Shown here piece by piece: positions 11,942-21,238 of a stretch of DNA of 64,000 nt. A model generated the notes under the pieces. That model did not search any database. It saw only the letters and a list, made by a program, of their open reading frames with translations, and was not told where the DNA came from. Position 1 is the stretch's first letter. Every line of letters starts with the position of its first letter. The DNA is taken from contig WRAZ01000004.1 of NCBI GenBank assembly GCA_009779925.1, positions 1 to 64,000 on the forward strand, read 5' to 3'. The DNA comes from Chitinivibrionia bacterium (GTDB lineage Bacteria; Fibrobacterota; Chitinivibrionia; Chitinivibrionales; Chitinivibrionaceae). Made by a program: the position numbers and the translations under genes.

Positions 11942-12153
11942 AAAACCCTCCTAAAAAAAGTTAAAGCAAGAACAACGGGAAAGGCTGTTCCGCCAATTAT
12001 TCATTGATTTCGCGAAAAATACAGAATATGCTTATCTTTTTGATAAAAACACGACAGACAGAACAACCTAAAGACAGTTGCTTTGTCGTATTTTCCTTTC
12101 AAAAGGAATTAAAAGAAAAGCGGAGACAATCTCCACTATTCCGTATTTTTCGC
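11942..12153 (-). ncRNA. Structured leader RNA, copy 1 (pseudoknotted)
   Basis: Runs from just after a promoter-like motif to the exported-protein ATG. P1 pairs 12153-12138 with 12027-12012 (16 bp, one G-U). P2 pairs 12094-12084 with 12056-12046 (11 bp, one G-U). The P2 loop segment 12068-12057 (GGTTGTTCTGTC) can pair with 11994-11983 (GGCGGAACAGCC), 12 bp with three G-U pairs, giving a pseudoknot. The same three helices with different bases occur at 21008-21177. A terminator-like hairpin lies between the P1 and P2 5' strands. No known riboswitch family was recognised. Start base is estimated from P1. Confidence 0.7.
12111..12136 (-). terminator. Terminator-like hairpin inside leader copy 1
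   Basis: Minus strand GTGGAGA-TTG-TCTCCGC followed by TTTTCTTTT. It could end transcripts of the RhuM gene, act as an attenuator in the leader RNA, or both. Confidence 0.5.
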
Positions 12154-12157
12154 ACCC

Positions 12158-12178
12158 ATAAAATACTATTTATTTGGG
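12158..12178 (-). promoter_or_regulatory. Promoter-like motif before leader RNA copy 1
   Basis: Minus strand CCCAAATAAATAGTATTTTAT, an instance of the recurrent motif ending 5 bases before helix P1 begins. Confidence 0.5.
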
Positions 12179-21005: not shown

Positions 21006-21238
21006 ACGTCTGAAATACCGAGAGGTAGGATTTTTTCTGCTTTTCGTTTATGTTATTCTCTATTGATAATTAGAGAAGATGGGCTGTCCGTCTGGGCTGT
21101 TCTGTCAGCCTTCTCTAATTAAAACATAGGCGTATTCGGTATTTCAGACAAAATATATGAATTTCGGCAGAACAGCCTTTCCGCTGTTTATTGCTTGAAT
21201 TGTTTAACTTTGCCGCGAAAGCGGCGGGAAGGTTGTTT
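21006..21238 (+). ncRNA. Structured leader RNA, copy 2 (pseudoknotted)
   Basis: P1 pairs 21008-21021 with 21136-21149 (14 perfect bp, GTCTGAAATACCGA). P2 pairs 21068-21078 with 21110-21120 (11 perfect bp). The P2-loop segment 21095-21106 (GGCTGTTCTGTC) pairs with 21166-21177 (GGCAGAACAGCC), 12 bp with one G-U. All three helices match copy 1 in position but not in bases. A CCTAC/GTAGG hairpin followed by six T (21003-21034) would enclose the P1 5' strand and compete with P1. A GCCGC-GAAA-GCGGC hairpin (21212-21225) lies just before the GGAAGG box. The 335 bp between priA and the next start hold this element and no gene. Confidence 0.72.

Follow-up and report, generated by a model that had tools for sequence, protein, structure and literature searches.

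Is the sequence that precedes two genes in the window, the first 64,000 nucleotides of a Chitinivibrionia bacterium contig (WRAZ01000004.1), a functional RNA, and what might it do for the genes that follow it? A sequence-only reading had proposed a two-copy pseudoknotted leader RNA, lying at 11942-12153 on the minus strand and at 21006-21238 on the plus strand and adopting the same fold in both places. Both copies are present at these positions and share the fold. As a count, two failed: there are at least 60 copies of the leader in the genome from which the window comes (2.50 Mb, 88 contigs). Used as a DNA query against this genome, each window copy gave 28 to 30 matches. A covariance model built from an alignment of 32 leader copies found 60 copies there at E<1e-5, and a model built from 85 copies added two weak ones, C34:18092 (E 3.5e-8) and C45:11449 (E 4.8e-7).

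The sole congener among the genomes searched was WRFX01, Chitinivibrionia bacterium isolate Mp193P3bin36, a termite-gut Fibrobacterota MAG; the Mp193 prefix stands for Microcerotermes parvus, a wood-feeding termite (PMC7024585). It gave 27 model matches, or 25 once two duplicated contig ends were removed, and the total is about 85 copies across two species of one genus. No convincing match was found in 166 of the 168 Fibrobacterota genomes searched, including three from the same family, and the weak matches in two genomes (per-genome E values of 0.003 and 0.009) are expected by chance given the 168 genomes searched. A pattern scan of 85k genomes and IMG/VR returned 58 stretches, among which only those from WRFX01 clearly fitted the model. 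Its three viral stretches had no model match and its other loci had E values of 0.19 or worse, leaving no additional clear member. Among the genomes searched, the family is confined to a single genus, within which it arose or was amplified. Its copies have a median pairwise identity of about 54%, and only 1 of 3,403 pairs reaches 80%.

Two places in the window genome show leaders in unusual settings. Contig C24 (10424-14465) carries four leaders on one strand within 4 kb; their upstream and downstream flanks are duplicated and gene remnants are truncated, resembling local duplication and decay of leader-gene units. At two contig ends (C32:131-326 and C56:8913-9127), different leaders precede identical first 29 codons, MAKNELEQITTELKICSNCDLHKNRKNVV. 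This could be a duplicated gene, or the contigs might represent strain variants with exchanged leaders.

The leader is about 200 nt long, and its fold comprises the long helix P1, helix P3, hairpins P2 and P4, and a 12-bp pseudoknot (Table 1). P1 is formed by TGCGAAAAATACGGAATA and TATTCTGTATTTTTCGCG in copy 1 and by GTCTGAAATACCGA and TCGGTATTTCAGAC in copy 2. The sequence-only reading had described P1, a second hairpin (P4 here) and a 12-bp pairing from its loop to a downstream strand, all of which held in both copies; it had not picked up hairpin P2 or helix P3, nor the other partners, described below, that the pseudoknot strands can take. Compared with shuffled sequence, the transcribed strands of the two window copies had MFE z values of -5.5 and -8.5. 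P1 has 13 to 22 pairs per copy (median, 18), though the 5' strands differ in 78 of 78 copies. When strands were swapped among 40 copies, a 5' strand paired best with the 3' strand of the same copy in 40/40 cases for P1, 25/40 for P4 and 10/40 for P3. Folding with pseudoknot strand A masked gave a clean P1-P2-P3 junction in 67 of 78 copies.

Covariation supports P1 and P2 overwhelmingly. Across 85 copies, double-sided changes were found in all 17 pairs of P1 and all 6 of P2, with 95% of cells paired, and none of 500 shuffles matched the alignment on any of five measures. This alignment had been fitted to P1 and P2; a MAFFT alignment (A2) agrees with it. In an unbiased G-test with APC over 15,701 column pairs, the top 10 pairs all belonged to P1. 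A structured cis-acting leader RNA is expected to show covarying structure on the transcribed strand, and this one does. Rfam 15, searched at the curated gathering threshold, gave no match in the whole window or in seven loci with further copies, and a permissive search gave only subthreshold matches. The proposal of a functional RNA of no recognized family was checked against what could have refuted it: homologues were found (about 85, in two species of one genus), covariation went far beyond chance and no Rfam family matched, so none of these checks refuted it. That the leader is a functional RNA family of one genus, outside Rfam, is in our judgment close to certain.

P2 with its U-run was flagged as terminator-like by a terminator scan in both window copies (12114-12137 in copy 1 and 21019-21046 in copy 2). 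Early termination here, some 20 to 40 nt past the predicted transcription start, is conceivable.

The pseudoknot joins a P4-loop strand, A (GGYUGUUCUGYC), to a strand about 16 nt 3' of P1, B (GGCRGAACAGCC), over 12 bp; in both window copies the loop sequence GGyTGTTCTGTC is complementary to GGCrGAACAGCC 3' of P1. Across 85 copies, 98% of A:B cells are paired and the sequence is almost fixed. Of the 12 pairs, seven vary on just one side and four show a double change, as in the congener pair GGTAGGGCAGCC with GGTTGTTCTACC; most pseudoknot pairs ranked low in the unbiased covariation scan. Covariation had been claimed for the whole fold, and that claim held overwhelmingly for P1 and P2, whereas the pseudoknot is mostly conserved in sequence and its covariation is weaker than was implied. 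Its wobble cells comprise 142 G-U and 6 A-C. Because G-U so far exceeds A-C, it is the sense RNA that is under selection, not DNA or an antisense RNA. This wobble direction is the strongest support for the pseudoknot; otherwise the case for it comes mostly from complementarity that is conserved and from G-U changes on one side, with a few double changes. In A-masked folding, the enclosing hairpin P4 contained A in every one of the 78 copies, and the median gap between A and the P4 3' strand was 1.5 nt. We therefore infer that P4 and the pseudoknot are likely to stack coaxially.

Table 1. Leader features in the two window copies
Copy	Feature	Position	Strand	Sequence, evidence or remark
1	Covariance-model match	11961-12153	-	
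1	Promoter -10-like element, TATTTT	12160-12165	-	6-7 nt before P1; position-specific consensus of ~78 copies aligned on P1 start
1	P1 5' strand	12137-12154	-	Predicted transcript 5' end
1	Inner P1, GGAA	12139-12142	-	Alternative partner, 12114-12117
1	Hairpin P2	12120-12136	-	GTGGAGATTGTCTCCGC; 6/6 pairs with double changes, 85 copies
1	Strand 3' of P2	12114-12117	-	Can extend P2 with inner P1 5' strand; 85% paired, 0/500 shuffles
1	P4 5' strand (P2 of the sequence-only reading)	12084-12094	-	Strand-swap test, own 3' strand best in 25/40
1	A', in P4 loop	12073-12080	-	Local alternative partner (P5) of A; complementarity above shuffles, z<-1 in 43/57
1	Pseudoknot strand A, in P4 loop	12057-12068	-	GGTTGTTCTGTC; 98% of cells paired with B, 85 copies
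1	P4 3' strand	12046-12056	-	Strand-swap test
1	P1 3' strand	12011-12028	-	
1	Pseudoknot strand B	11983-11994	-	GGCGGAACAGCC; near-invariant; partner A or downstream C
1	Strand C, 3' arm of H2	11966-11976	-	Followed by TTTAACTTTTTTT; H2 predicted in 55/57 window-genome copies, weak in congener
1	Downstream gene, 195 aa	11354-11941	-	Signal-peptide-like N terminus MGKIVRVLAAVLIAACVVCGQ; no Pfam match
2	Covariance-model match	21008-21199	+	
2	P1 5' strand	21008-21021	+	
2	Hairpin P2	21024-21040	+	Extension partner, 21043-21046
2	P3 5' strand	21045-21054	+	CGTTTATGTT; 3' strand, 21123-21132
2	P4 5' strand	21068-21078	+	3' strand, 21110-21120
2	Pseudoknot strand A	21095-21106	+	GGCTGTTCTGTC
2	P1 3' strand	21136-21149	+	
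2	Pseudoknot strand B	21166-21177	+	GGCAGAACAGCC
2	Strand C, GCTGTT	21183-21188	+	Alternative partner of B
2	Downstream gene, 544 aa	21239-22873	+	Signal-peptide-like N terminus; no Pfam match

Three strands (inner P1, A and B) each have two mutually exclusive partners, an arrangement newly recognized here. The alternative pairing is shown; its use as a switch is inferred. The inner P1 5' strand, XGAA, can pair with UUCX' directly 3' of P2, extending that hairpin. In this extension the double-change cells numbered 38, compared with 14 in shuffles, and the covariation score was 0.388, compared with 0.240 when shuffled, a score that 0/500 shuffles reached; it was also above slides. Strand A can pair with A' in its own loop to form P5, with a mean energy in the window species of -7.1, compared with -3.9 when shuffled. 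Strand B can pair with strand C to form hairpin H2. The mean energy of the B:C duplex in the window species was -11.5 kcal/mol, compared with -5.7 with shuffled C (z<-1 in 51/57 copies). In the congener the corresponding means were -7.6 and -5.4 kcal/mol (z<-1 in 7/21), and the median hairpin energy there was -5.8 kcal/mol, compared with -10.6 in the window species. Strand C is missing from a few copies. At least five T residues lie within the 9 nt after H2 in 37 of 57 window-species copies; a U-rich stretch often follows the downstream hairpin only in this species. A simple consensus terminator scan returned H2 in neither of the two window copies. Since the alternative pairings each exclude part of the closed fold, we read them as cotranscriptional strand exchange.

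Two further pairings were considered and rejected. In the window species, pairing of the linker GAAT with the P1 ATTC seemed plausible, but GAAT is replaced by GATTAT in the congener, where ATTC stays the same. A pairing of the congener's downstream segment with the P1 3' end (GGTAAAAC with GTTTTACC) exceeded shuffles in only 9 of 21 copies.

The sequence-only reading had also placed the leader just after a promoter motif and before genes for exported proteins, and both points held. The TATTTT element lies 6 to 7 nt upstream of P1 in both species, so transcription probably starts at P1; this start is inferred. For 82 of 83 copies, a start codon follows on the same strand no more than 330 nt past B (76 with a Shine-Dalgarno-like motif), and for 69 of 83 no more than 130 nt past it; the median distance is 75 nt in the window species and 110 nt in the congener. 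The leader thus meets a further expectation for a structured cis-acting leader RNA, a place in the 5' untranslated region, on the same strand and beside a start codon. A crude predictor called signal-peptide-like N termini for 52 of 80 downstream genes; among genes of the window background it did so for 16 of 43 (p=0.003). Leader genes for nonexported proteins include those for DUF1016/YhcG nucleases, FRG, GIY-YIG and DUF1643 proteins, a nucleotidyltransferase, a DNA methylase and a glycosyltransferase. At six loci such genes are accessory or defence-like in kind (GIY-YIG, DUF1016/YhcG, FRG, DUF1643 and DNA methylase). No common pathway that would name a signal was found among the downstream genes.

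Homologous genes bear the leader in both species, an example being a DUF6567 lipoprotein gene (53% identity) that was not found in five other genomes tested. The leaders of homologous genes are no more similar to each other than random leader pairs, which argues that the leader sequence is saturated while the fold has been kept. We consider it very likely that the leader acts in cis. A leader peptide was rejected by inspection: the conserved linker holds TATGAATT, but its frame and ATG vary between copies.

How might such a leader act? In the mechanism we propose, it would form the first 200 or so nucleotides of the mRNA of the following gene and be common to about 60 genes of one genome. In the closed state, the long P1 would close a three-way junction of P1, P2 and P3-P4, and A in the P4 loop would pair over 12 bp with B just 3' of P1, probably stacked on P4. 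In the open state, pairing would be local: the inner P1 5' strand would extend P2, A would pair with A' and B with C. The pseudoknot would be an antiterminator, and its loss would let B:C form and halt transcription ahead of the gene. Transcription attenuation seems the most likely action because the B:C hairpin often precedes a U-rich stretch in the window species. Many exported and accessory proteins would be set together by a shared signal, be it a metabolite, a protein or an RNA, that acts at the junction or the P4 loop.

The fold, sense-strand selection, copy number, position and alternative partners are shown. Termination, the direction of control and the existence and nature of a signal are inferred, in the absence of expression, probing or ligand data, and a cis-acting bistable leader that controls transcription through the choice between pseudoknot and H2 is our best guess but could as readily prove wrong as right. 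The main weakness of attenuation is that B:C is weak in the congener, where other 3' sequences follow B. Control may work differently there, or the leader may merely stabilize the message. A terminator switch was rejected as a universal mechanism, since B:C is not retained in most congener copies. A bolder reading is that a single signal governs some 60 genes in a 2.5-Mb genome by strand exchange (P1/P2 extension, P5/pseudoknot and pseudoknot/H2) in a genus-restricted class of bistable leaders; we lean slightly against it.

The best surviving rival is a constitutive 5' element without a switch, a compact pseudoknotted domain that would shield the mRNA 5' end from decay or insulate the ribosome site, so that the messages for exported proteins would last long. 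This remains possible. In its favor, P1 stands at the predicted transcript start, its sequence is free (78/78 distinct 5' strands) yet always paired, and the 3' part varies between species while P1 to P4 and the pseudoknot stay. Against it, a simple stem would do, and it leaves unexplained the near-invariant 12-bp pseudoknot sequence, the conserved linker and the three alternative partner strands.

Another rival holds that the leader is cut or terminated into a family of trans-acting small RNAs, the downstream genes being incidental. The leader has its own promoter and, in the window species, a terminator-like 3' hairpin, and the conserved strand A of one copy could pair in trans with the conserved B of another. 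This reading is very unlikely given that the start codon of a Shine-Dalgarno-bearing gene follows B at the medians above, that homologous genes retain the leader in both species and that H2 is not conserved in the congener.

A selfish or mobile repeat (MITE-like or a mobile promoter), spread in one genus and folding merely as an inverted repeat, is likewise very unlikely and already disfavored. It would fit the dozens of copies in a single genus, the accessory genes downstream (DUF1016, FRG, GIY-YIG and DNA methylase) and the small tandem array with duplicated flanks on C24. The leader is nevertheless not a recently mobile repeat, because identity among its copies is only about 54% and nearly all of them have the same orientation as the gene that follows; near-identical copies and gene-independent orientation, both expected of such a repeat, were not seen. 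The wobble is G-U rather than A-C, hence RNA rather than DNA is selected, and no transposase was found among the downstream proteins searched. We rejected integron-like cassettes along with mobile repeats for want of near-identical copies, the C24 array resembling local duplication. A DNA-level hairpin, inverted repeat or recombination site was rejected on the excess of sense-strand G-U over A-C.

Several known systems resemble the leader in part. An orphan riboswitch candidate, listed among weak candidates (PMC11109978), likewise has a terminator stem-loop proposed to form a pseudoknot with the preceding hairpin and so permit read-through. It is a different RNA, linked to one-carbon metabolism, whereas the present leader has a long P1, a three-way junction and a 12-bp pseudoknot and occurs in tens of copies before unrelated genes. 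Mobile or repeat candidates from the same study also have dozens of copies per genome and a long covarying stem; unlike them, the leader is consistently gene-sense, has a complex pseudoknotted fold and shows neither near-identical copies nor an associated transposase. Cyclic di-GMP riboswitches provide many leaders of one class per genome, often before genes for extracellular functions. In contrast, the present leader has no Rfam match or known ligand and numbers about 60 copies in 2.5 Mb, in one genus. The Termite-flg and Termite-leu motifs (PMC2864571; RF01729 and RF01730) are structured RNAs known only from the termite hindgut; no Rfam family, these two included, reached its gathering score on the window or the seven further-copy loci.

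What is new here is a previously unclassified leader RNA family, mostly before exported-protein genes, in one termite-gut bacterial genus. If it responds to a signal, a termite-gut bacterium uses one RNA fold, and not a protein regulator, to run much of its exported and accessory proteome, and if the bolder one-signal reading were true, this would rank among the largest single-genome cis-RNA regulons known. Because the family arose or was amplified within one genus, how a structured RNA class is born and spreads can be tested directly, and the roughly 85 divergent copies amount to an unusually rich set of natural mutants for a 12-bp pseudoknot and a branch-migrating junction.

The 3' part of the leader differs between the two species, while P1 to P4 and the pseudoknot are kept. 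In congener copies (three were taken as examples), a different recurrent hairpin-like sequence, GGCAATTAGCGCGGTGCTTTTTGTATAA and GGCAATAACAATAACGTTTTTGCATAA, lies about 60 to 110 nt past B, before the start codon. GAGCGCGGTGCTC versions of it also follow two window-species copies. One class of leaders (window positions 21209-21228 and several other window-genome copies) has a small second hairpin, TTTGCCG-loop-CGGCGGAAAGG, right at the Shine-Dalgarno sequence.
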